DNA from: a virus
Strand: one strand, 5' to 3'
Virus record (IMG/VR): IMGVR_UViG_3300041409_000651
Coordinates: 1-53,032 of that record
Length of the DNA stretch: 53,032 bases
Part shown: in pieces, positions 4,107-49,445 of the stretch
Numbering within the stretch: the first letter of the stretch is position 1
Layout of the letters: each line of letters starts with the position of its first letter
Notes under the pieces: generated by a model
What the model was told of the DNA's origin: nothing
The model's input: the letters and a program-made list of their open reading frames with translations, nothing else
Database searches by the model: none
Position numbers and translations under genes: made by a program

Positions 4107-4140
4107 TCGGCTACGATCGGGTCCTCACCTTCCCAAGGAG
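4103..4140 (+). promoter_or_regulatory. Regulon promoter and leader (GTAGTCGGC-TACGAT ... TCCCAAGGAG)
   Basis: The element GTAGTCGGC runs into the -10 box TACGAT (4112-4117) and overlaps the TAG stop of the preceding gene. After 13 bases the conserved leader TCCCAAGGAG (4131-4140) precedes the ATG at 4146. Same layout as at 12618, 42223, 45121 and 49123. Confidence 0.7.
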
Positions 4141-4145
4141 GACCC

Positions 4146-4913
4146 ATGACCGAACCCCGACCGCGTGCGCCACTGGCGTTCGTGGACACCGAGACGACCG
4201 GTCTCGACCCGAACCGTCACGAGGTGTGGGAGGTGTTCCTACACCTCCGAGAGTTCCGCGAGGACGGCACGCCGCGGACGCCGTTCGAGAAGCGGTGGTT
4301 CCTGCCCGTCGACCTCGGCAAGGCGGACCCGGTGGCGCTCACGATCGGCCGCTATTACGAGCGGTGGACGAAGCCGACGGCGCCGTCGACGAAGGGCGTC
4401 GTCTACGTGGACTCGGACGCGTCGACCCTCGAAGCCTTCGCCGCCGAGTTCGCCCGCCTCACGCACGGCGCCCACCTCGTCGCCGCGGTCCCGAGCTTCG
4501 ACGACGCCTTCCTGAAGCGCCTCCTCACGAAGCACGGGGCGTGTCCGGGGTGGCACTACCACCTCGTCGACGTCGAAGCGCTCGCGATCGGCTACCTCCG
4601 CGGCATCGCCCGCGGTGTCGCCGTCGCCGGTGACGTCGCCCGGTTCGGCGCGACCGTCGACCGTGCCCGACAGGTGAGCGCGCCGCCGTGGGACTCCTCG
4701 GCGTTGACGCAGGCGCTCGGGATCTCGATCGACGAGTCGACGAAGCACACCGCCGAGGGCGACGTCCGGTGGGCGATCGAGATCTACGACAAGGTCATGT
4801 CGGCGACCGGGCTCGACGCCGTGCCGCCGAGCATGGCCGCCGAGGCGAAGGGCTACTCGAACCTCATCGGCGTCGCGGACGCCGCCGAGTCCGTCCTCCG
4901 GAGCGACTCGTGA
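4146..4913 (+). CDS. DEDDh-family 3'-5' exonuclease
   Basis: 255 aa. The classical exonuclease motifs are visible in order: FVDTETTG with D14 and E16 (Exo I), SFDDAFLKR with D119/D120 (Exo II), and HTAEGDVRWA with H201 and D206 (Exo III of the DEDDh type). Such DnaQ/RNase T-like enzymes remove nucleotides from 3' ends of DNA or RNA in a two-metal reaction. Here it is a stand-alone gene rather than part of a polymerase. It has its own promoter and leader. It may serve recombination with the annealing protein at 38642, repair, or turnover of host nucleic acid; the substrate cannot be inferred from sequence. Confidence 0.8.
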   Translation: MTEPRPRAPLAFVDTETTGLDPNRHEVWEVFLHLREFREDGTPRTPFEKRWFLPVDLGKADPVALTIGRYYERWTKPTAPSTKGVVYVDSDASTLEAFAAEFARLTHGAHLVAAVPSFDDAFLKRLLTKHGACPGWHYHLVDVEALAIGYLRGIARGVAVAGDVARFGATVDRARQVSAPPWDSSALTQALGISIDESTKHTAEGDVRWAIEIYDKVMSATGLDAVPPSMAAEAKGYSNLIGVADAAESVLRSDS

Positions 4914-7708: not shown

Positions 7709-8038
7709 ATGACCTCCCAAGGAACCGCCACCCGGACCTGCTCGACCTGCTCAGCCGAGATCACCTTCTGCGCCGTGAACGACGCCTTCGTCGACGCCGA
7801 CGACCGCCTCTTCTGCGACGTGAAGGGGGAGGCGATCCGGCACACGCCGGTCGTCTTCCCGTACGAGATCGGCGACCTCGTACGCAAGGGCAACGGCTCG
7901 ACCGTCTACCGGATCACGCACCTCTCGGCCGCTCGTGGCGGTACCGCCGGGGTCTGCAAGGCGACCACGGCGAAGGACCCCGCCCGGACCTGCATGTACC
8001 CGTTCGACGCCTTCACGAAGGTCGAGGCGCAGGCATGA
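7709..8038 (+). CDS. Cys-rich hypothetical protein, 109 aa
   Basis: Begins at the ATG 8 bases after the -10 box TACGGT, so the transcript is probably leaderless. The N-terminal part has CSTC and then C at residue 21 and C at residue 36, a plausible zinc site; further cysteines lie near residues 83 and 95. The middle (YEIGDLVRKGNGSTVYRITHL) looks like a small beta barrel of KOW or SH3 type. Oddly, codons 3-5 contain the phage leader motif TCCCAAGGA with no start codon after it, which suggests that an older downstream start was lost. The function is unknown. Confidence 0.6.
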   Translation: MTSQGTATRTCSTCSAEITFCAVNDAFVDADDRLFCDVKGEAIRHTPVVFPYEIGDLVRKGNGSTVYRITHLSAARGGTAGVCKATTAKDPARTCMYPFDAFTKVEAQA

Positions 8039-12620: not shown

Positions 12621-12657
12621 GTCGGCTACACTTCTCGTCGTACCCTCTCCCAAGGAG
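12618..12657 (+). promoter_or_regulatory. Regulon promoter and leader (TAAGTCGGC-TACACT ... TCCCAAGGAG)
   Basis: TAAGTCGGC overlaps the TAA stop of the preceding gene and leads into TACACT (12627-12632). The leader TCCCAAGGAG (12648-12657) stands five bases before the ATG at 12663. Same architecture as the other regulon units. Confidence 0.7.
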
Positions 12658-12662
12658 CCGAC

Positions 12663-12932
12663 ATGACCGAAGCATCCACCCCCACTGACCGACTCGTCGG
12701 CATCGAGGATCACGTCCGGGCCATGCGCCGTCTGATCGCCGACATGCCCTACTCGGGGCTCCTGACGACGAACACCTCGACGATCGAGACGCTCGCCGAC
12801 GTCGAGCGCGTCCTCGTCGATCTCCGCTCGGTCCTCCGCAACGTCGCCCGCGAGGCCGAGGCCGAGCGCGCCGAGTTGTTCGAGCTTCGTTCGCAGCGCG
12901 CCGCGATGCGGAGGTTCCTCGGGACCGCCTAG
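12663..12932 (+). CDS. Helical hypothetical protein, 89 aa
   Basis: It has its own regulon promoter, leader and terminator, so it is a one-gene transcription unit embedded in the head genes. The protein is almost entirely helical with a C-terminal coiled-coil-like stretch (AREAEAERAELFELRSQ, residues 65-81). A small helical protein in front of the protease could be a scaffold-like or regulatory protein, but its separate regulation from the head genes suggests an early role. No family is recognised. Confidence 0.6.
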   Translation: MTEASTPTDRLVGIEDHVRAMRRLIADMPYSGLLTTNTSTIETLADVERVLVDLRSVLRNVAREAEAERAELFELRSQRAAMRRFLGTA

Positions 12933-14968: not shown

Positions 14969-14996
14969 TTGCGCGCGAATCCGAAGCGTGTAACTT
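14969..14996 (+). promoter_or_regulatory. Capsid promoter TTGCGC-16-TAACTT
   Basis: TTGCGC (14969-14974) and TAACTT (14991-14996) with a 16-base spacer form a good SigA-type promoter. A leader of about 90 bases follows, with a small inverted repeat CCGGCCGAGCCGG near 15010, before the GAGGAG Shine-Dalgarno of the capsid gene. A dedicated promoter fits the high demand for capsid protein. Confidence 0.55.
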
Positions 14997-15093
14997 GTGC
15001 CGCAGACGCCCGGCCGAGCCGGGACATGGGTCGACCCGAGGTCGGCGAGCCGCATCACCACATGCTCACCACTCACGAGGAGTCAATCGACCC

Positions 15094-17064
15094 ATGTTTC
15101 CCGAGCTTCCGGCCAACCTGTCCGACCTGTCCGACGAGGATCTCGGTCGCCTGATCGACGAGTACGTCGCGGCGATCGCCGACGGTGCACCGAACGTCCG
15201 CACCGCCGAGGAGGTGGCCGCTCTCGAAGCCGCAGGACAGAACCTCGCCGCGCTCCGCGCCGACGCCGAGCGGCGCGAGTCCGAGCAGGCCGAGATCGTC
15301 CAGCGGGCGCAGGCGGTCGTCGACGCCGCGAACGCGACGGCCGAGCCCGCCGAGGGTGCCGAGGGCACCGAGGGTGGTGAGGGCGACGGCGCCGACGGCG
15401 GCGAGACCCAGCCCGCCGAGGGCGCCGAGGGCGCTCCCGCCGAGCAGGAGTCGGTGACCGCCGGTGCGGCCGCTCCCGCGGTCACCCGCCGGATCCCGGC
15501 GATCCCGCAGCGCCCGGCGCTCTCCTCGATCTCGGGCCGCCAGCCCGCCGGGTCGCAGCCCGACCCGCGGCGCCCGTCGAACCTGCGGATCCTCGCCGCT
15601 CCGGACCTGCCGAACTTCTCGACGGGTCAGGATCTCAACATGGCGCAGGTCGCGAACGCGATGGTCGAGCGTCACGAGCGGCTCGGCCGTTCGCAGGGCG
15701 TCGACGGCGAGGTCGTCGGGATCGCCACGATCGAGGCGTCGATCCCGACCGACCGGTTCCTGACGTCGGTCGCGAGCCCGGTCGACAACACCGGTCGGGT
15801 CGAGGCGGTCACCGCCGCGCTCCGCTCGGCGTCGGTCGACGAAATGGACTCGCTCACCGCGGCCGGTGGGCTCTGCGCGCCGGTGGCGCCGTACTACGAC
15901 ATCCTCGTCGTCGCCGACTCGGCCCGCCCGATCCGCGACTTCCTCCCCGGCTTCGGCGCCGACCGCGGCGGCATCACCCTGATCCCGCCGCCCACGCTCG
16001 CTTCGGTGTCCCCGATCGCCCGCACGGTGGCGGACGGTGCGACGACGAACGCTTCGGCGACGGTCACGTCGGCGACGGCCGCGTTCGACGCCCGCGACGT
16101 CGGCGCCACGATCGCCGGTGCGGGCATCCCCGCCGGTGCCTACATCGTGTCCGTCACGAACGCGACGACCGTCGTGATCTCGGCGAACGCGACGGCGACG
16201 GCAGCGGGTGTGAGCATCACGATCACCCGCCTCGGGACGGTCGGCTACATCACCGCCACGCAGGACGCCGCCGCGCTGAACGGCACCGCCGCGCAGCAGA
16301 TCGCGGCGCAGAAGCCGTGCCTGCACGTCGTGTGCGGCAACCCGCAGACCTACACGGTCGACGCGATCTCCCGGTGCTTGGAGTTCGGGAACTTCTCGGC
16401 CCGCGCCTACCCGGAGCAGGTCTCGTCGTGGATCGACCTCTCCATGGCGGCGCACGCCCGCCGCGCCGAGACGTCGCTCCTCGATCAGATCGCCGCGAAC
16501 TCCGTCGCCGTGACCGCCGCTCTGGCGCTCGGCGCCGGTGCCGAGGTGTTCGCCCGTGCCGCGCAGCTTGCGGAGGGCTACCGGAGCCGCAACCGGATGA
16601 GCGAGGACGCCTCCCTCGACGCGTTGTACCCGTCGTGGACGGTCGGGCTCATCAACGCCGACCGGGTCCGTGCGGGCGTCGAGCCGCTCACCCGCGCCGA
16701 GATCGAGGCCCGCTTCCGGGCCACGGCCGGTCTCCGGATCGGGTGGTACGTCGACTCGAAGACGGGCGGCGGTCAGGTGTTCGGCACGCAGTCCGTCGGC
16801 GCGGCGCTCACGTTCCCGTCGACGCTCGTGTGGTACCTGTTCGCGCCGGGGACGTTCCTGTTCCTCGACGGCGGGACCCTCGACTTCGGGCTCGTGCGGG
16901 ACTCGACGCTGAACGCCCGGAACGATTACCGGATCATGGTCGAGACGTTCGAGAAGATCGCGTTCACCGGGTTCGAGTCGCTCGAAGTCACGCAGACGGT
17001 GTGCGCGACCGGCGAGATCGGCGCCCGCCGCACCGGTGGCGCGGCGCTCGTCTGCCCGGTCTGA
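15094..17064 (+). CDS. Major capsid protein (HK97-like) with N-terminal scaffold-like region and inserted beta domain
   Basis: 656 aa. The ATG at 15094 has GAGGAG upstream. Residues 1-75 are helical, 76-130 are an acidic Glu/Gly/Ala-rich linker, and a cleavable delta-like region may end near residue 180. The capsid core starts around LRILAAPDLPNF and ends with the long VRDSTLNARNDYRIMVETFEKIAF segment, typical of actinophage capsid proteins. Between about residues 308 and 380 a Thr/Ala/Val-rich repeat-like domain is inserted (TNASATVTSATAAFDA and DVGATIAGAGIPAGAYIVS). I know this type of domain from phage fibres and surface proteins; it probably projects from the capsomer. Function as capsid shell follows from position and core sequence. 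Confidence 0.8.
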   Translation: MFPELPANLSDLSDEDLGRLIDEYVAAIADGAPNVRTAEEVAALEAAGQNLAALRADAERRESEQAEIVQRAQAVVDAANATAEPAEGAEGTEGGEGDGADGGETQPAEGAEGAPAEQESVTAGAAAPAVTRRIPAIPQRPALSSISGRQPAGSQPDPRRPSNLRILAAPDLPNFSTGQDLNMAQVANAMVERHERLGRSQGVDGEVVGIATIEASIPTDRFLTSVASPVDNTGRVEAVTAALRSASVDEMDSLTAAGGLCAPVAPYYDILVVADSARPIRDFLPGFGADRGGITLIPPPTLASVSPIARTVADGATTNASATVTSATAAFDARDVGATIAGAGIPAGAYIVSVTNATTVVISANATATAAGVSITITRLGTVGYITATQDAAALNGTAAQQIAAQKPCLHVVCGNPQTYTVDAISRCLEFGNFSARAYPEQVSSWIDLSMAAHARRAETSLLDQIAANSVAVTAALALGAGAEVFARAAQLAEGYRSRNRMSEDASLDALYPSWTVGLINADRVRAGVEPLTRAEIEARFRATAGLRIGWYVDSKTGGGQVFGTQSVGAALTFPSTLVWYLFAPGTFLFLDGGTLDFGLVRDSTLNARNDYRIMVETFEKIAFTGFESLEVTQTVCATGEIGARRTGGAALVCPV

Positions 17065-25712: not shown

Positions 25713-26100
25713 CGGCTCCTACGTCCGCTTCGACGGGGCGAAGCTCGCCGCGTACCTGACGGCGACGGGCGGGCACGTCGCGCAGGATCTCACCCGGCGG
25801 GCGTTGCGTGTAGCGAACCGGGCGAAGGAACTCGCGCCCGTCGACACGGGACGGCTCCGCGCTTCGATCGTGTGGACGATCGGTGTCGGCGGGAACGGGA
25901 AGCTCGTCGCGCGCGTCGGGACGAACGTCGCGTACGCCCGGCCCGTCCACGAGGGTTCACGCCCGCACGTGATCCGCCCGCGCCGCGGTCGGGTGCTCGT
26001 GTTCCCGATGGGCGGCCGTACCGTCTTCGCCCGAGTCGTTCACCATCCCGGCACCCGGCCGCACCCGTTCCTGCGGGACGCGCTCCGGGCGGCCGCCTGA
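25705..26100 (+). CDS. HK97 gp10-like tail completion (neck) protein, 131 aa
   Basis: GTG start with an eight-base overlap. The sequence AKELAPVDTGRLRASIV, NVAYARPVHEGSRPHVI and HHPGTRPHPFLRDALR matches the core of HK97 gp10-like minor tail/neck proteins. A helix leads to PVDTGxLR, then YAxxVHxG, then the C-terminal HPGTxPxPFLR. These proteins complete the head-proximal end of the tail. Its place before the chaperone and tape-measure genes agrees. Confidence 0.8.
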   Translation: MPDGSYVRFDGAKLAAYLTATGGHVAQDLTRRALRVANRAKELAPVDTGRLRASIVWTIGVGGNGKLVARVGTNVAYARPVHEGSRPHVIRPRRGRVLVFPMGGRTVFARVVHHPGTRPHPFLRDALRAAA

Positions 26101-26110
26101 TCCCAAGGAG
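26101..26110 (+). promoter_or_regulatory. Conserved leader/RBS TCCCAAGGAG
   Basis: Exact copy of the regulon leader directly after the upstream TGA, five bases before the ATG at 26116. Here no TCGGCTAC promoter element is present, so the motif acts at the level of translation. Confidence 0.7.
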
Positions 26111-26115
26111 GACCC

Positions 26116-26547
26116 ATGAAGGATTTCGATGCGGCACGCAGAGAACGCGGCGAGAAGGAGGCGCCGCTCGACTTCCGTCTCGGCGGCGAGGAGTTCCACC
26201 CGATCGCCTACTACCCGGCCGGGAAGTACCTCTCGATCGTCGTCGGCGGCGTGACCGTCGTCCGCTACCGCGACTTCATGGGCGACGTCCTGCCCGACGA
26301 GGAGTACGAGATCTTCGAGAAGGTGATCGAGAGGAAGATCGACCCGATCGACGTCGCCGACGTGAAGGACGTCGTCGACTGGCTCATGGCGGAGTACGCG
26401 GCCCGCCCTACGAAGCCGCTCACCTCCTCGGATGGTGGGCGGCCGAGCGATGGGGACTCCTCGAAGCCCGATACGACCCCGACGGGACCGGACGTCTCCT
26501 CGATCTCCCCATCCGGCGAGTCCTCGGCTTCGCTTTCGCCGAGCTAA
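26116..26547 (+). CDS. Tail assembly chaperone, short form (gpG-like), 143 aa
   Basis: Starts behind the leader TCCCAAGGAG. Residues 1-95 form the folded part (PLDFRLGGEEFHPIAYYPAG, EEYEIFEKVIERKIDPID). The last 47 residues are Ser/Pro/Gly/Asp-rich and overlap another open frame that codes the folded second half. This is the usual arrangement of G and GT chaperones, which bind the tape measure protein and recruit tail tube subunits. The short form results when ribosomes do not shift. Confidence 0.75.
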   Translation: MKDFDAARRERGEKEAPLDFRLGGEEFHPIAYYPAGKYLSIVVGGVTVVRYRDFMGDVLPDEEYEIFEKVIERKIDPIDVADVKDVVDWLMAEYAARPTKPLTSSDGGRPSDGDSSKPDTTPTGPDVSSISPSGESSASLSPS

Positions 26548-36302: not shown

Positions 36303-36575
36303 ATGCCCGAACCCGTCATCACCGGCCCGTCGAACACCGGGAAGGATCCGGTCCTCACCCTCGGCACGGTCACGGCGCCAGTCGTCCGCACCGGCGGTCA
36401 GGTGACGCTCACGATCGCGGCGATCCGGCTCGCCGAGGTCGTCCCGAACCCGGACCTCGTGATCTCGTCCGGTGACCGCGACCTGATCTTCGGTGTCCTG
36501 ATCCTCGTGATCGCATTCGCGCAGAACCTCATCGAGAAGACCGTCGGCCGCCGTCTCGTCGGAGCGGCCCGCTAG
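36303..36575 (+). CDS. Holin candidate, 90 aa
   Basis: ATG three bases after the protease stop. The N-terminal half is polar and the C-terminal half has one strong hydrophobic helix at about residues 60-77 (DLIFGVLILVIAFAQNLI), ending in a basic tail (EKTVGRRLVGAAR). Size, topology and last position in the lysis block fit a small holin that opens the membrane for the endolysin. Other one-TM proteins in the block compete for this role. Confidence 0.55.
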   Translation: MPEPVITGPSNTGKDPVLTLGTVTAPVVRTGGQVTLTIAAIRLAEVVPNPDLVISSGDRDLIFGVLILVIAFAQNLIEKTVGRRLVGAAR

Positions 36576-36579
36576 GCGG

Positions 36580-36699
36580 TACACTCGCCTCGCCGGGCGC
36601 CGACGTAAGGTCAGGTTCGGCGACGTTCCTCCTTGGGAGCGTCGGCACCGGCAGAGCGACACGAGACCTCACGAACCCCCGCCGGTCGTGAGGTCTCGT
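36580..36699 (+). ncRNA. Candidate small RNA with anti-leader loop
   Basis: A gene-free unit at the late/early boundary. The -10 box TACACT (36580-36585) puts a start near 36592. A stem CGACG (36621-36625) / CGTCG (36640-36644) displays the loop TTCCTCCTTGGGAG. Within it CCTCCTTGGGAG (36628-36639) is the exact reverse complement of CTCCCAAGGAGG, the leader in front of about ten phage genes, and it resembles the 16S rRNA anti-Shine-Dalgarno. A 14-bp terminator hairpin ends the unit. It has no coding potential and no start codon follows on the minus strand, so it is not an inverted gene start. Action in trans on leader mRNAs is inferred. Confidence 0.45.
36661..36699 (+). terminator. Strong terminator hairpin of the late region/sRNA unit
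   Basis: ACGAGACCTCACGA (36661-36674) pairs perfectly with TCGTGAGGTCTCGT (36686-36699) over 14 bases with an 11-base loop. No U-run follows. It separates the lysis block from the early block. Confidence 0.7.
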
Positions 36700-36758
36700 C
36701 GCGTCCGAAACCGAGTCAAGCGGAATCTGAACTTCGCTCTGACCAGCATCGACGCGCG

Positions 36759-36842
36759 GCCGACTTCGAGCCGCTAGGCGTCGAGCATCCGAAGTCGGCT
36801 ACGGCCGTTTGCTACAATGGCGGTAGCCACTCTCCCAAGGAG
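36759..36842 (+). promoter_or_regulatory. Early-operon control region with inverted operator halves, TACAAT box and leader
   Basis: GCCGACTTCG (36759-36768) and CGAAGTCGGC (36790-36799) form an inverted repeat 21 bases apart, followed by TAC. A near-perfect -10 box TACAAT (36813-36818) lies further downstream. The leader CTCCCAAGGAGG (36832-36843) is the copy with the longest match to the candidate small RNA. The ATG is at 36848. This is the most elaborate of the regulon control regions and starts the main early operon. Confidence 0.65.
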
Positions 36843-36847
36843 GCAAC

Positions 36848-37303
36848 ATGCCAGAGCAACCCGAGTACCTCGTCCGAGGCCGGTCCTTGTCGCAGACCCG
36901 GATCGTGCAGTCGACGACGCCGTTCGTGCAGCACAAGGCGGTTCACCGCCCGACCGGGAAGTCGATCGGCGGCTTCACCGAAGTCGCCGTCGCCGGGGTC
37001 GACCGGAAGAACGTCGTCGTAGCGTCTCGCGACACCGTCTACGCCGACGGCCGCGGCGGTCAGGGCGTCCGGGCGCACGTCGCTAAGACGGCGGCCGGTC
37101 TGAAGACGGCGGTCCGTCGACTGCGGCCGCAGGAAGCCGAACGTCTCGACGAGATCGACGCCGAGATCCGAGCGCTCCGTGAGGCGATCACCGCCCTACA
37201 AGCGGCCCGGAAGAACGTCGTCGCCGAAGCGTGGGCGAAGGCGCACGTCGTCCGCCTGAACGAGATCACCCTCGCCTCCGACCCGACGCTGAGGGCGAAG
37301 TGA
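36848..37303 (+). CDS. Early hypothetical protein, 151 aa
   Basis: First gene of the early operon, behind the regulon leader. The N-terminal half is beta-rich and basic (VRGRSLSQTRIVQSTTPFVQ, HRPTGKSIGGFTEVAVAG), and the C-terminal half is a coiled-coil-like helix (ERLDEIDAEIRALREAITAL). The basic, helical outline would suit a nucleic acid-binding or host takeover protein. No homologue is recognised. Confidence 0.6.
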   Translation: MPEQPEYLVRGRSLSQTRIVQSTTPFVQHKAVHRPTGKSIGGFTEVAVAGVDRKNVVVASRDTVYADGRGGQGVRAHVAKTAAGLKTAVRRLRPQEAERLDEIDAEIRALREAITALQAARKNVVAEAWAKAHVVRLNEITLASDPTLRAK

Positions 37304-37593
37304 CGGCGACCGTGACGTTCGAGATCTCGGGCGCGGCATGGGCGGCCGCGGTCATCGACGGCGGGTGGCCCGCCGACAACCCGACCGCCGCGGCGATCGT
37401 CGAGTCGAGCCCGTGGCGCGCCGTCGGCAAGGGGCGCCGCTACACGGTCACGCTCCCCCGTTCCGACGCGAGCGACCTCGCCGACTACTTGTGGTCGGTC
37501 GCCGAGGTGAACGAGGTCGGTGAGGGACGCGACTCGAAGGTCGTCGGCGTCTGCCGCCGGGCCGTCGACGCGATCGTCGAGGCGCTCCGATGA
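37300..37593 (+). CDS. Hypothetical protein, 97 aa
   Basis: GTG in a GTGA overlap. A small alpha/beta protein (TVTFEISGAAWAAAVIDGGW, RRYTVTLPRSDASDLADYLW). No metal site or membrane segment. Coupled within the early operon ahead of the Gam-like gene. The function is unknown. Confidence 0.55.
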   Translation: MTATVTFEISGAAWAAAVIDGGWPADNPTAAAIVESSPWRAVGKGRRYTVTLPRSDASDLADYLWSVAEVNEVGEGRDSKVVGVCRRAVDAIVEALR

Positions 37594-37982
37594 GCGGGCT
37601 CCCCGACGGTGCGACGTACAACGTCGACGGGGTCGAGCCGTTCCACGGCGCCGCCGTCGTGATCCACCTCTCCCACGAGCCGACCGGCGCCACGCAGGAC
37701 GAGCGGGGACTGACGTACGAGGTGCGCGTGACGCTCCCCGAGGTCCCCCGCCTGATCGAGGCGATCGTGTCGGCGTACTCGTCGTCGGTCCACGACCTCC
37801 TCACCGACCTCGCCGCGGGCGGGTGCCGCACGTGCTCGAACGAGCGCGCCGTCGGCGTGAACAAGCTCGCCGCTCTCCTCGGCGGAGACGGCGGCGGCGA
37901 ACCCTGTCCCGTCTGCATCCCACGAGCCCGGAAGCGGATCCGCGACCGGGTCTCGTTCCCACGAAAGGACCGCACCCGATGA
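37590..37982 (+). CDS. Hypothetical protein with Cys pairs, 130 aa
   Basis: ATG in an ATGA overlap. Beta-rich first half, then CRTC near residue 78 and CPVC near residue 109, separated by a helix; these four cysteines could bind zinc. The C-terminus is basic (IPRARKRIRDRVSFPRKD). Possibly nucleic acid-binding. No family name. Confidence 0.55.
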   Translation: MSGLPDGATYNVDGVEPFHGAAVVIHLSHEPTGATQDERGLTYEVRVTLPEVPRLIEAIVSAYSSSVHDLLTDLAAGGCRTCSNERAVGVNKLAALLGGDGGGEPCPVCIPRARKRIRDRVSFPRKDRTR

Positions 37983-38611
37983 CCCCCGACCCGCTCTTCC
38001 CCGACTACGAGAACGAGGCGTGGCTCTGGCCCGACGCGCCGCCCGCCGCCGAAGCTCCCGAGCCCGAACCGAACCCCCGCTTCCTCGTCGACTCGACGGC
38101 GAAGGCGGAGTGGGCGATGCGCCGCGTTGTCGCCGCCCGCGCCGAGATCGCCCGGATCGCCGCCGAGGCCGAGGAGCTTCAGCACCGGATCATCGCGTGG
38201 CATCAACAGGCGGAGCGTCGTCCGCAGCGGACGCTCGAACACTTCGAGGCGCTCCTCGTCCGCTACCACCGCGACCAGTACGAGCAGGCGATCGCCGACG
38301 GTGTCCGCGAGAAGGATCTCCCGAAGTCGATCAAGCTCCCGTCGGGCGTGCTCCGCTCGACGGCGCCCGGCAAGGGCCGCCTCGTCGTCGACGACGAGGA
38401 CGCTCTCATCGAGTGGCTCGACGCGAACACGACCCTCGACGTGATCGAGGAGGTCGTCGCCCGGAAGGTGCAGGCGGCGAAACTCCGGGCCGTCGCCGTC
38501 GAGACCGACAAGGACGGCGAGACGGTCCTGATCGTCTCCGGTCAGGTCGCGCCGCACGTCCGCGTCGAGCGCGACACCGAGCGCTCATTCACTGTCGCAC
38601 CCTCGTCGTAA
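37979..38611 (+). CDS. Mu Gam-like host-nuclease inhibitor, 210 aa
   Basis: ATG in an ATGA overlap. The helical hairpin (AKAEWAMRRVVAARAEIARI ... EEAEELQHRIIAW) is followed by LEHFEALLVRYHRDQYEQ, KSIKLPSGVLRS and a VDDEDALIEWL segment. This order matches phage Mu Gam-like proteins, which bind DNA ends like Ku and protect them from RecBCD/AdnAB-type nucleases. The neighbour is a single-strand annealing protein, so the two form a recombination pair. The predicted role is protection of linear phage DNA ends. Confidence 0.75.
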   Translation: MTPDPLFPDYENEAWLWPDAPPAAEAPEPEPNPRFLVDSTAKAEWAMRRVVAARAEIARIAAEAEELQHRIIAWHQQAERRPQRTLEHFEALLVRYHRDQYEQAIADGVREKDLPKSIKLPSGVLRSTAPGKGRLVVDDEDALIEWLDANTTLDVIEEVVARKVQAAKLRAVAVETDKDGETVLIVSGQVAPHVRVERDTERSFTVAPSS

Positions 38612-38636
38612 GATCCGCTCACCCTCTCCCAAGGAG
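38609..38636 (+). promoter_or_regulatory. -10 box TAAGAT and leader TCCCAAGGAG
   Basis: TAAGAT (38609-38614) overlaps the TAA stop of the Gam-like gene, with TTCACT about 15 bases upstream. The leader TCCCAAGGAG (38627-38636) precedes the ATG at 38642 by five bases. The TCGGCTAC element is missing here, so this unit shares the leader only. Confidence 0.6.
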
Positions 38637-38641
38637 CCGAC

Positions 38642-39844
38642 ATGACCGAACCCACCGAAACATCCGAGTCCGCCGCGCCCGCCCGACCGCCAGTGATGCC
38701 GCTCGGCGACGTCGCTCTCCGCCTCGCCGCCGACCTCGCCGAGAACGGCGGCGAGCAGGAACAGATCCGCGACCTCCTCCTCCGCTCGCTCTGGCGGCCG
38801 ACCGACCCGAGTCTCGTGTCGAAGCTCCCGAAGGGGAACACGATGCTCGACTACCTCGGGCACGCCGACACGACCCGCCTCATCGCCGAGATCGACCCGA
38901 TGTGGGAATGGTGGCCGTGGCCCGAGTTCGCCGCGTCGTGGGGCGAGGACGTCGTCGCCCGAGACGACAACGGCTACCCGAGGCGGCTCTACATCAAGCT
39001 CACGATCCTCGGCGTGACCCGGCCCGGTATCGGCACCGTCGAGAAAGGCAAGTCGGACCCCGAGAAGGAACTCATCGGCGACGCGATCCGGAACGCCGCG
39101 ATGCGGTTCGGGATCGGCGCCGACTTGTGGTCGAAGGCGCCGCACGGCGATCTCGACGCCACGGCCGGTGAGCACGCCCGCGCGGCGAAGGGCGGCGGGA
39201 AGGACTGGTACATCGAGGCGGGATGGGACGGCGGGCAGGCCGAGCACGACCGCTCCCGCGAGAACCTCCTCGCCCGCCTCCGGACCCTGAACCCCGAGAA
39301 CGTCGCCGCGTTCCGGAAGTGGCGCGAGTCCGCGGGCTACAAGATCGGGAACGAGGCATCGACGCACGACGAGTGGGTCGCCATGCTCGACAAGGCGAAG
39401 GAGCTTCAGGCGGCGCAGAAGACGCCCGACGCCACGACGCCGCCTCAGAGCCCGCAGGAGCCGTCGGCTCCGGATGCCGCGCCCACGCCGCCGAGCGCCG
39501 CAGGAGGCGAATCCGGGCCGCCTCCGCCCGAATCTGCGCCACCTCCCCCGCCGAGCACCGACGAGGACGACGAGGTGCCGTGCCCGGCGTGCCTCGGCGG
39601 ACCCGACGGCCGGATCGACCCGGACTGTTGGGGATGCGACGGCCGCGGGACCGTGAAGCCCGCGGCGGCCACGACCGCCACGCAGGTACTCGACGCCCGA
39701 GAGAAGGCGCCCGACCACCCCGAGTGCGCCTTCTGCGGGTCGAAGCGGACGAAGGTCGCCGAGGTGAACGGTCACCTCCGGTGCGTGAACGCCACCGACT
39801 GCCGCCGCCGGGCCGAAGCCCGCAAGGATCCCGCCGAGCAGTAG
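38642..39844 (+). CDS. Rad52-like single-strand annealing protein with C-terminal zinc modules, 400 aa
   Basis: Residues about 60-190 carry the annealing core: LDYLGHADTTRLIAEIDPMW, WWPWPEF, RLYIKLTILGVTRPGIG and GDAIRNAAMRFGIGADLWSK, the last being a hallmark of the Rad52/Sak-type recombinases of phages. A helical part follows, then a Pro-rich linker (about residues 265-305). Two cysteine modules end the protein: CPACLGGPDGRIDPDCWGC, a DnaJ-like knuckle, and CAFCGSKRTK ... LRCVNATDC. Such proteins anneal complementary single strands during phage recombination. The zinc modules are an uncommon addition. Own promoter and leader. Confidence 0.8.
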   Translation: MTEPTETSESAAPARPPVMPLGDVALRLAADLAENGGEQEQIRDLLLRSLWRPTDPSLVSKLPKGNTMLDYLGHADTTRLIAEIDPMWEWWPWPEFAASWGEDVVARDDNGYPRRLYIKLTILGVTRPGIGTVEKGKSDPEKELIGDAIRNAAMRFGIGADLWSKAPHGDLDATAGEHARAAKGGGKDWYIEAGWDGGQAEHDRSRENLLARLRTLNPENVAAFRKWRESAGYKIGNEASTHDEWVAMLDKAKELQAAQKTPDATTPPQSPQEPSAPDAAPTPPSAAGGESGPPPPESAPPPPPSTDEDDEVPCPACLGGPDGRIDPDCWGCDGRGTVKPAAATTATQVLDAREKAPDHPECAFCGSKRTKVAEVNGHLRCVNATDCRRRAEARKDPAEQ

Positions 39845-42226: not shown

Positions 42227-42263
42227 CCGACTTCGGGTAGGGTGGTCTCCTCTTCCCAAGGAG
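42223..42263 (+). promoter_or_regulatory. Regulon promoter (GTAGCCGACTTCGG, -10 TAGGGT) and leader
   Basis: GTAGCCGACTTCGG begins at 42223 over the TAG stop of the upstream gene and leads into TAGGGT (42238-42243). The leader TCCCAAGGAG is at 42254-42263, seven bases before the ATG at 42271. Confidence 0.65.
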
Positions 42264-42270
42264 GCACCAC

Positions 42271-42444
42271 ATGGACCGAACCCCGAAGCCGAACCCGTCG
42301 CAAGTCGCGCGGGCCGCGGCTGACGTCGACGCCGAGGCCGCCGAGCGCGGCGTGAAGCTCACCGCCCACGAGCGGACCGTTCTCATCGAGGAGCGGGCAC
42401 ACAAGCTCGCGGCCGCCGACAACGACACACCGAAGCACCGGTGA
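42271..42444 (+). CDS. Small helical hypothetical protein, 57 aa
   Basis: ATG behind a regulon promoter and leader, which is the main support for this short gene. The protein is mainly one charged helix (QVARAAADVDAEAAERGVKL, VLIEERAHKLAAAD). It ends with a one-base overlap (TGATG) with the next gene. Its prominent control region suggests an early regulatory or takeover role. Confidence 0.6.
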   Translation: MDRTPKPNPSQVARAAADVDAEAAERGVKLTAHERTVLIEERAHKLAAADNDTPKHR

Positions 42445-45123: not shown

Positions 45124-45165
45124 GTCGGCTACGCTACCCGGCTAAGCCTCACCTCTCCCAAGGAG
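45121..45165 (+). promoter_or_regulatory. Regulon promoter (TAGGTCGGC-TACGCT) and leader
   Basis: TAGGTCGGC covers the TAG stop of the upstream gene and leads into TACGCT (45130-45135). The leader TCCCAAGGAG is at 45156-45165, eight bases before the ATG at 45174. Confidence 0.7.
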
Positions 45166-45173
45166 CCGAACCC

Positions 45174-45452
45174 ATGCCGCAGTCTCCCGAGCCCGAGCGC
45201 TCGTGGTCGATCCAGAAGTTCGCCTCGAACGGTCAGGGCATGATCGTCGTCGGGTGCGCCGACACGCCCGTCGGGCACCGCCCGCTCGTGATGATCGTCG
45301 ACGACACACGCCGCAAGCCGCGGCCCGTGACGCTCGAACCGGTCGAGGCGGCCGACGTCGCTCTGCGCCTCCTCGCCGACGTCGTGAAGGGCGCTCCGGA
45401 GGAGGACGCGCTCCGCATGCTCGCGGTCATGCTCACGCGGCGACTCCGGTGA
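45174..45452 (+). CDS. Hypothetical protein, 92 aa
   Basis: First gene behind a regulon promoter. A small alpha/beta protein: WSIQKFASNGQGMIVVGCAD and RPLVMIVDDTRRKPRPVTLE as strands, then a C-terminal helix. No known motif. It is coupled to the J-domain gene by a GTGA overlap. Confidence 0.6.
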   Translation: MPQSPEPERSWSIQKFASNGQGMIVVGCADTPVGHRPLVMIVDDTRRKPRPVTLEPVEAADVALRLLADVVKGAPEEDALRMLAVMLTRRLR

Positions 45453-47370: not shown

Positions 47371-47421
47371 TCGGCTTCGGAATGGTGGTACGCTTCGGGG
47401 CGTCAACCCATTCCCAAGGAG
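47367..47421 (+). promoter_or_regulatory. Regulon element (GTAGTCGGCTTCGG), -10 TACGCT and leader
   Basis: GTAGTCGGCTTCGG begins at 47367 over the upstream stop. TACGCT (47389-47394) is 12 bases further on than in the usual arrangement. The leader TCCCAAGGAG is at 47412-47421, eight bases before the ATG at 47430. Confidence 0.6.
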
Positions 47422-47429
47422 CCGACACC

Positions 47430-49046
47430 ATGACCTTCACCCCCACCGACGAGCAGGCGACGGCGCTCGACCTGTTCCGCACCGGGCAGTCCCTCGCGAT
47501 CGAGGCGGGCGCCGGTGCCGGGAAGACGAGCACCCTTCAGTTGCTCGGGAACTCGACGACCGCCCGCGGTCAGTACCTCGCGTTTAACAAGGCGATAGTG
47601 ACCGAGGCCGGGTCGAAGATGCCCGGCAACGTGGCGTGCTCGACCGCCCACTCGCTCGCCTTCCGGGCCGTCGGCCGGAACATGAAGCACCGCCTCGACG
47701 CCCACCGCATGAAGTCGCAGGAGATCGCGAAGATCATCGGGATCGACCGGCAGTCCCTCGTCGTGCGGCACGGCTCGCAGACGAAGGTTCTCCAGCCGTC
47801 GTACCTCGCCGGGCTCGCGATGCGGGCGATCACCACGTTCTGCCAGACCGCCGACGACGTGCCCGGCGAGCGCCACGTCCCGTACGTCGAGGGGATCGAC
47901 CTCCCGACCGAGGCCGGGAAGCGGACGTGGAAGAACAACGACGAGGTGCGCCGGATGCTCGCGCCGCTCCTGCCGCAGATGTGGCGGGACCTGACCGACA
48001 AGGGCGGCCGCCTCCCGTACAAGCACGAGCACTACCTGAAGGCGTGGCAGCTTGACCGGCCCACGATCCACGCCGACTTCCTCCTGATCGACGAGGCGCA
48101 GGATCTCTCGCCGGTCATGCTCGCGATCGCCGCCGAGCAGCATCACGCGCAACTCGTGTTCGTCGGCGACTCGCAGCAGCAGATCTACGAGTTCACGGGC
48201 GCCGTGAACGCTCTCGCGAACGTGGCCGCCACGAACCGCGCGTTCCTCACGCAGTCGTTCCGGTTCGGCCAACCGATCGCCGACGTCGCGAACCTGATCC
48301 TCGGGACCCTGAACGCCGAACTCCGCCTCACCGGCACCGACCGGGTGTCGTCGTCGGTGACCCCGATCGACGAGCCCGACGTGATCCTGTCCCGCACGAA
48401 CGCTTCGGCGACGTCGACGCTCCTCCGCCTCACGAAGAGCGGGAAGCGGGTCCACCTCATCGGCGGCGGCGAGGACGTCCTGTCGTTCGCCCGAGCGGCC
48501 CGCGACCTGAAGGCGCAGACCCGCACCTACCACCCCGACCTGTCGTGCTTCGAGACGTGGGGCGAGGTTCAGGACTACGTGTCGAACGACCCGCAGGGCT
48601 CGGACCTGAAGCTCCTCGTCGACCTCATGGACGACAACGACCCCGACGTCGTGATCGACACGCTCTCGCGGATGCCCGCCGAGCGCGACGCCGACGTCGT
48701 CCTCTCGACCGCCCACAAGGCGAAGGGCCGCGAGTGGGACCGGGTGCAACTGGCCGGGGACTTCCCCGACCCCGACGAGAAGGACGTCTCCGACGGCGAG
48801 TGGCGGCTCCTGTACGTCGCAGCGACCCGCGCCCGCCGCGAACTCGACGTGACCGGATGCGGCGCGATCTCGTCGCTCATGCGGGCCGAGGTCGAGTCGG
48901 CCGCCGCTCCCGCCGCGGTGGCGCCGGTGCCCGTCCTCGTGCCCGCAGAGGCGCCGTCGACGTCGTGCCCGAGGTGCGGAACCGAAGGCGCCCGCTCGGC
49001 CCGCACGGGGATCGTGAGCGCGACCCACCGGTGCCCGATCGGGTAG
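47430..49046 (+). CDS. UvrD/Rep-like superfamily 1 DNA helicase, 538 aa
   Basis: Behind a regulon leader. Motif I is GAGAGKTS (residues 27-34), motif II DEAQD (221-225), motif III GDSQQQIYEF, then SFRFGQPIAD, STAHKAKGREWDRV (motif V region) and LLYVAATRARREL (motif VI). The C-terminus adds CPRCGTEGARSARTG with a final Cys, a small zinc ribbon. Such helicases unwind or clear DNA ahead of replication and recombination. It is the only helicase in the genome, while a DnaB homologue is missing. A strong terminator follows at 49076. Confidence 0.85.
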   Translation: MTFTPTDEQATALDLFRTGQSLAIEAGAGAGKTSTLQLLGNSTTARGQYLAFNKAIVTEAGSKMPGNVACSTAHSLAFRAVGRNMKHRLDAHRMKSQEIAKIIGIDRQSLVVRHGSQTKVLQPSYLAGLAMRAITTFCQTADDVPGERHVPYVEGIDLPTEAGKRTWKNNDEVRRMLAPLLPQMWRDLTDKGGRLPYKHEHYLKAWQLDRPTIHADFLLIDEAQDLSPVMLAIAAEQHHAQLVFVGDSQQQIYEFTGAVNALANVAATNRAFLTQSFRFGQPIADVANLILGTLNAELRLTGTDRVSSSVTPIDEPDVILSRTNASATSTLLRLTKSGKRVHLIGGGEDVLSFARAARDLKAQTRTYHPDLSCFETWGEVQDYVSNDPQGSDLKLLVDLMDDNDPDVVIDTLSRMPAERDADVVLSTAHKAKGREWDRVQLAGDFPDPDEKDVSDGEWRLLYVAATRARRELDVTGCGAISSLMRAEVESAAAPAAVAPVPVLVPAEAPSTSCPRCGTEGARSARTGIVSATHRCPIG

Positions 49047-49122: not shown

Positions 49123-49169
49123 GTAGCCGACTTCGGCTACACTTCGTGTCGGCACCCCATCCCAAGGAG
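49123..49169 (+). promoter_or_regulatory. Full palindromic regulon promoter and leader
   Basis: GTAGCCGACTTCGGCTAC (49123-49140) is the most complete operator: GTAGCCGA and TCGGCTAC are perfect inverted halves. It overlaps the -10 box TACACT (49138-49143). The leader TCCCAAGGAG (49160-49169) precedes the ATG at 49176. Confidence 0.75.
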
Positions 49170-49175
49170 ACCACC

Positions 49176-49445
49176 ATGCCGAAACTCCGTCCCTTCGACG
49201 GCTTCACCGACTGGCAGCAAGCCAACGGCGAGCACGTCACGACCACCGTCGACGGCGAGGAAGTCGTCGACCTCGACACCGTCGGCGCCGAGATCGCACG
49301 AGAGGTCGTCGTGCACTACACCGCGCAGGCGGTCCTCGCCGCGGCGATCGACTTCGTGAACGCGTTCGAGGCGGGCGCACCGTGCGACGTGACGCTCCTC
49401 GTCGAGCGCGTCGAGTCCTATCGGGAAGCGACGGACCTCCGATGA
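49176..49445 (+). CDS. Hypothetical protein, 89 aa
   Basis: First gene of the operon behind the full palindromic promoter. Alpha/beta, with GEEVVDLDTVGAEIAREVVV as a notable helix. No known motif. Coupled to the next gene by an ATGA overlap. Confidence 0.6.
   Translation: MPKLRPFDGFTDWQQANGEHVTTTVDGEEVVDLDTVGAEIAREVVVHYTAQAVLAAAIDFVNAFEAGAPCDVTLLVERVESYREATDLR

Follow-up and report, generated by a model that had tools for sequence, protein, structure and literature searches.

The virus contig analyzed here (the window, at its full length of 53,032 nucleotides) probably encodes a small RNA that acts in trans to silence a whole set of phage genes sharing one leader, and would probably do so late in infection. 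The candidate RNA carries an anti-leader, a single stretch complementary to the shared leader, and leader and RNA have changed together in seven very different genomes, suggesting that the RNA probably switches this gene set off.

The window is a 53-kb contig with a 69-bp end repeat and is thus probably a complete phage genome, whose + strand encodes terminase, portal, head, tail, peptidase, Gam, annealing, and replication genes. A DNA search of the phage collection with the window returned no useful relatives. The portal and other proteins of the window have distant relatives among actinobacteriophages, so that the host is probably an actinobacterium. The window and the relatives described below are environmental phages probably infecting actinobacteria. 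The major head protein open reading frame (14995-17064, 689 aa) matches the head family best only in a C-terminal stretch (430-680), and its N-terminal part holds a short repeat near 15315-15432.

A start-associated leader, CTCCCAAGGAGG and its variants, precedes ten gene starts on the + strand. These are the ten sites listed in an earlier sequence-only reading, which had placed each of them 1 nt too high. The leader sites and the repeat associated with them are the following:

1690-1701, + strand: leader of gene 1706-2194, with no TANNNT box nearby
4130-4141, + strand: leader of gene 4146-4913
12647-12658, + strand: leader of gene 12663-12932, in the structural half
26100-26111, + strand: leader of gene 26116-26547, just 5' of the tape measure gene in the structural half, with no TANNNT box nearby
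36832-36843, + strand: leader CTCCCAAGGAGG of gene 36848-37303, with 12-nt exact complementarity to the anti-leader
38626-38637, + strand: leader of the single-strand annealing protein gene 38642-39844
42253-42264, + strand: leader of gene 42271-42444
45155-45166, + strand: leader of gene 45174-45452
47411-47422, + strand: leader of the helicase-like gene 47430-49046
49159-49170, + strand: leader of gene 49176-49445
7714-7725, + strand: eleventh, degenerate leader copy CTCCCAAGGAAC with no start codon behind it, accompanied by a TACGGT box and a GTCGGCTAC element of its own
4106, 7690, 12621, 36794, and 45124 on the + strand, 42231 and 49131 on the - strand: copies of GTCGGCTAC

Ten of the 11 CCCAAGGA sites on the + strand stand before an ATG, and the 12-mer is matched 17 times in the window when up to two mismatches are allowed, compared to 4.1 times (sd 1.9) in shuffles. 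A TANNNT box lies 9-19 nt upstream of 9 of the 11 leader sites, against 0.72 per kb overall in the window, suggesting that most leaders would lie near the 5' end of their own mRNA. At seven leader promoters the GTCGGCTAC repeat overlaps or adjoins the -10 box in either orientation; it looks like an operator or promoter element, and an eighth copy is found inside a gene at 16240. The degenerate copy at 7714-7725 could be a decoy soaking up the RNA or simply a degenerate site. A protein search with the product of gene 36848-37303 found neither relatives nor a recognizable family.

The candidate RNA unit occupies a non-coding gap whose 5' neighbor is a small gene (36303-36575), itself located after the lysis peptidase. 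The features of this region are as follows:

36576-36831, + strand: non-coding gap that separates the last late gene from the leader of the next operon and contains the RNA unit
36580-36585, + strand: TACACT, candidate -10 box of the RNA, by consensus match only
36599-36605, + strand: GCCGACG, 5' strand of an outer helix in minimum free energy (MFE) folds, partner of 36640-36646
36607-36610, + strand: AAGG, predicted in the folds to pair with CCUU of the anti-leader as an internal lock
36628-36639, + strand: anti-leader CCTCCTTGGGAG (in RNA, CCUCCUUGGGAG), the complement of the shared leader
36640-36646, + strand: CGUCGGC, 3' strand of the outer helix in MFE folds, directly 3' of the anti-leader
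36661-36699, + strand: 14-bp GC-rich hairpin (z = -5.25), where both the RNA and the late transcript probably end
37520-38611, + strand: open reading frame holding a Mu Gam-like end-protection protein

The putative -10 box named in the sequence-only reading was recovered at 36580-36585; the same hexamer also occurs upstream of the leaders at 12647 and 49159, and the candidate promoter of the RNA unit is without the GTCGGCTAC element. The 14-bp hairpin described as a terminator was likewise recovered, but no run of T follows it, and hence it is not a canonical intrinsic (rho-independent) terminator. Terminators without U tracts have been discussed for actinobacteria. An Rfam search of the window gave no match at the gathering score, the sole match in the RNA slot being a chance microRNA (E 4.7). 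A second inverted repeat, GCCGACTTCG...CGAAGTCGGC (36759-36768 and 36790-36799), overlaps a GTCGGCTAC element and sits 3' of the RNA unit, ahead of the next promoter.

The exact complementarity between the anti-leader and the shared leader was confirmed. On the - strand, the leader 12-mer has a single exact copy (36628-36639), and the gap reaches a mean longest complementary run of 11.1 nt against the ten leaders, compared to 5.7 nt in shuffles, none of which (0/600) attained that value. Exact runs for the individual leaders measured 11, 12, 11, 12, 12, 11, 11, 11, 10, and 10 nt, a range of 10-12 nt rather than the 11-12 matching bases claimed previously. The predicted duplexes with the ten leaders were also strong, with a mean energy of -23.4 kcal/mol compared to -17.0 for other starts bearing a Shine-Dalgarno (SD) sequence and -12.6 for random 30-mers, but net binding after the folding cost was modest, with a mean of -4.3 kcal/mol that was matched by 21% of random 30-mers. 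By this net measure, leaders were favored in G001 and G058, two relatives of the window, and weakly in the window itself, while in two others (G005 and G004) they did no better than random. Genome-wide, the anti-leader site was the best complement of the leaders in G001 and G004; in the window and G058 it was among the highest-ranking ones after the antisense strands of real leaders had been set aside.

The sequence-only reading further held that the stem-loop exposes CCTCCTTGGGAG, which the predicted fold does not support: CCUCC is mostly paired, with unpaired probabilities of 0.00-0.31, and GGGA alone is largely free (0.64-0.69). The fold of G001 likewise pairs AAGG with CCUU, and the MFE folds of the other relatives place an inner hairpin before the anti-leader and a closing helix at or just after it. 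However, whereas six genomes have a very strong downstream hairpin (z -4.3 to -5.5), the window is the only one in which the 5' domain clearly beats shuffles (z -2.5, against -0.07 to -1.7 elsewhere), which makes this inner-hairpin and closing-helix architecture suggestive rather than proven.

Seven diverged genomes with a uniform leader, namely, the window, G001, G005, G004, G058, G109/G110, and G060, each carry a cognate anti-leader in the gap before a leader-bearing operon. We group them as a proposed leader/anti-leader RNA class, in which the anti-leader precedes or lies within a strong hairpin. Where measured, the six relatives show 25-65% identity in shared proteins, and outside the complementarity the sequence cannot be aligned. 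Leaders differ among the relatives (UCCCAAGGAG, ACCCAAGGAG, CCCCAAGGAGCA, UCCCAUGGAGG, ACCCCGA, and ACCCCGAGGAAGG), and the anti-leaders change to match. Joint change of leader and loop had been set beforehand as a test, and its outcome was favorable: the unit is kept in six relatives, and the anti-leader follows the leader. The pairs include:

UCCCAAGGAGG, with anti-leader CCUCCUUGGGA
CCCCAAGGAGC, with anti-leader GCUCCUUGGGG
UCCCAUGGAGG and CCCAUGAGAGG, with anti-leader CCUCUCAUGGGA
ACCCCGA, with anti-leader UCGGGGU
CCCCGAGGAAGG, with anti-leader CCUUUCUCGGGG, in 12 contiguous pairs with one G-U

Most of these relatives were reached via protein homology and not via the anti-leader. Helicase alignment led to G004 and G005 and later to G058 and G060, while Gam alignment led to G109/G110; G001 came from a scan for the leader before ATGACCG and was found again through its helicase. 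This last genome (54.9 kb) is broadly collinear with the window, with a protein identity of about 27-57%, and carries TCCCAAGGAG seven times on one strand and once in reverse. This reverse copy is flanked by the Gam gene and by a small membrane gene that comes after the lysis gene. A gam homologue also lies directly 3' of the RNA slot in G004, G005, and G109. Leaders in G005 read ACCCAAGGAG, and its unit, GTCCTTGGGAG plus a hairpin before gam, has lost one SD pair (CGUCC), leaving only 8 bp and a weak fit to the class. In G004, the leaders are TCCCATGGAGGG and CCCATGAGAGG and the unit consists of CCTCTCATGGGAG and a hairpin before gam, with a complementarity test that is confounded by a CATG palindrome. 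The G058 leaders (CCCCAAGGAGCA) are accompanied by the unit GCTCCTTGGGGC and a hairpin, and ACCCCGA occurs nine times in G109/G110, with one inverted occurrence in the gap that precedes gam. The anti-leader there matches mainly the part of the leader upstream of the SD sequence and is not an SD mimic. Finally, ACCCCGAGGAAGGA-like leaders stand at six or seven starts in G060, and the unit CCCCTTTCTCGGGG, in the gap after a membrane-protein gene, offers 12 contiguous pairs including one G-U and is enclosed by a long helix. As a separate observation, a promoter-like repeat, CCTAACCGCGCTAAGGTT, precedes most G001 leaders, with counterparts in G005 (ACCGCGGTATGGT) and G058 (TGCTAAGGT).

The anti-leader test covered the fetched helicase relatives with a detectable uniform leader; twelve other helicase relatives had no uniform leader in a scan gated on the -10 box. 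A few starts in G069 carry CCAAGGAG, its leader is not uniform, and there is no reverse copy. By eye, the Gam-bearing genomes G032 and G008 showed no such unit before gam, and a helicase scan of the genome collection returned actinobacterial helicases with no Gam near them. The pattern TCCTCCTTGGGAGCGNC matched 11 stretches, mostly coding by appearance, and revealed no second system, while GTTCGG..CCTCCTTGGGA returned G001 and otherwise chance-looking matches. For the window, G001, G005, and G058, we ruled out that the reverse copy is the leader of a reverse-strand gene, as no start codon lies within 25 nt behind it; GTG codons are found near the reverse copy in G004 and G109.

Shuffling each gap separately gave equal or better complementarity in 0/600 cases for the window, 0/600 for G001, 8/600 for G005, 5/600 for G004, 0/600 for G058, and 31/600 for G109 (four leaders tested, p = 0.05). 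For G060, the count was 1/600 with G-U pairs allowed, 96/600 with Watson-Crick pairs only, and 0/200 by energy. The Fisher-combined p was about 3e-7 over five gaps (G001, G005, G004, G058, and G109), with the window left out as it had been chosen for its match, and G060 also left out; G001 is a less independent test among these because it was examined for its reverse copy. Furthermore, when five anti-leaders were set against five leader sets, only 2 of 120 permutations, one of them the true assignment, paired as well as the true assignment.

These results are best explained by a mechanism in which the unit would yield an RNA of roughly 110 nt (about 36590-36699). This RNA could be transcribed from a promoter of its own, arise as the 3' end of the late transcript, or both, and its outer helix and inner hairpin would present the anti-leader on the 3' side. 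Since GGGA is more often unpaired than CCUCC, we read it as the point where pairing with UCCC of the leader would start, before invading via CCUCCUU across the SD sequence and blocking ribosomes on ten phage mRNAs. As late transcription accumulated the RNA, the leader-bearing genes, which serve DNA metabolism or in many cases have unknown functions, would be shut down. In most genomes, the late operon leads straight into the unit and no obvious terminator separates the two, so that late transcription could raise the RNA level, an arrangement that supports, but does not show, late silencing. In G058, the neighbor just upstream of the unit (~27102) is instead a divergently oriented reverse-strand gene that has a real leader, and the unit would need its own promoter. 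An early-to-late switch is suggested by the position beside the late operon, but a pure early-gene switch would be a poor fit, two of the target leaders (12647 and 26100) being in the structural half.

The anti-leader might instead act in cis as an insulator, folding on late read-through transcripts onto the adjacent downstream leader and leaving other mRNAs unaffected. A leader-bearing gene does start within about 90-260 nt downstream in 7/7 genomes, and the pair in the window is an exact 12-mer. We nevertheless consider this unlikely, as a strong hairpin separates the anti-leader from the adjacent leader in most genomes, the adjacent gene in G001 and G058 has a variant leader (CCCCGAGGAG) such that the anti-leader fits distant leaders better, and an insulator has no need for ten uniform leaders across the genome. 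It is more improbable still that the region is only the terminator of the late operon, with a coincidental or relic complementarity. The hairpin is indeed the best supported structure and stands at the late operon end, and the complementary stretch is short and partly paired, but coincidence sits poorly with seven genomes, with the combined p obtained even without the window and G060, and with a complementarity that tracks leader changes though the remaining sequence cannot be aligned.

The possibility of a general anti-SD RNA directed against host mRNAs, a phage version of the actinobacterial 6C/B11 RNA that would take ribosomes over for the phage, deserves separate consideration. CCUCCUU is a copy of the 16S rRNA 3' end, and other SD-bearing starts pair with the RNA too, at the mean of -17.0 kcal/mol given above. 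However, the CCC part of the leader is unnecessary for ribosome binding and has no partner in the 16S rRNA 3' end, yet it is covered by the pairing; the phage's own leaders pair clearly better (-23.4 kcal/mol); and the G109 anti-leader lacks an SD mimic, its match lying mainly upstream of the SD sequence. Coverage of CCC and the G109 match favor dedicated recognition of the leader, and we regard a general anti-SD function as very unlikely.

The trans-acting silencer that we favor has partial parallels among described systems. The C-rich loops of the actinobacterial 6C/B11 small RNA block ribosome binding sites in mycobacteria, reportedly without a chaperone (PMC10470900). Both RNAs are structured and contain a C-rich stretch, and 6C/B11 pairs with the ribosome binding sites of many mRNAs, as is predicted for the window RNA. 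Unlike the chromosomal 6C/B11, with its two unstructured C-rich loops, the window unit is phage encoded, has one partly paired anti-leader and no Rfam match, and is directed at one repeated phage leader that co-varies with the RNA. The C4 antisense RNA of phages P1 and P7 pairs around the ribosome binding site of a phage mRNA (PMC12197685) and is similarly a short phage RNA with a looped complement aimed at such a site, but it controls one antirepressor message, in cis, whereas ten separate genes share the target in the window; Rfam found no C4 match there.

A further counterpart is found in cluster K mycobacteriophages, in which a repeated SD-containing leader (SAS/ESAS) lies by start codons, often with its own promoter (PMC3203893, PMC12699233, PMC11373665). 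These start-associated sequences were already described in 2011, with no function assigned and an RNA or protein binder left open, and four K1 phages carry one unexplained SAS copy in reverse orientation that is not associated with any gene (PMC3203893). We found the single reverse SAS of Adephagia (JF704105, 58682-58694) in the loop of a long hairpin. This hairpin lies in the gap between genes 92 and 93, the apparent starting region of late transcription (PMC11373665). Cluster K phages also show, in the gap before the last small genes, a conserved late-promoter-like block of TAGACT followed by AGCACAACTGTGCC. The K1 phages thus share with the window a repeated SD-containing start leader plus one reverse copy that is not located at a gene start, but the leader itself (GGGATAGGAGCCC versus CTCCCAAGGAGG) and the gene position differ. 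Moreover, Adephagia, Anaya, Niklas, and Amelie retain the reverse-SAS loop, Hammy, Unicorn, and Shandong1 carry an altered form, and Marshawn, Keshu, Yuna, KiSi, and other phages have lost it though their SAS is unchanged, so that the parallel is only partial. Our literature search, which had most subscription journals outside its reach, returned no described system of leader/anti-leader form; the earlier statement to this effect holds for the full form, but 6C/B11, C4, and the K1 reverse SAS were already described.

We tentatively propose, as a possibility somewhat short of even, that these phages possess a private translational regulon, in which a uniform leader behind many promoters is served by one dedicated RNA and the two co-evolve as lock and key, so that silencing stays confined to the genes of the phage itself and spares those of a rival phage and of the host. 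Cluster K1 phages may have arrived at this design independently. If true, one small RNA would control a whole phage gene set at the level of translation, with a specificity that evolves as leader/anti-leader pairs. Such a pair suggests a simple orthogonal translational switch, and a cognate RNA would be a direct answer to what binds the repeated start-associated leaders of actinophages.
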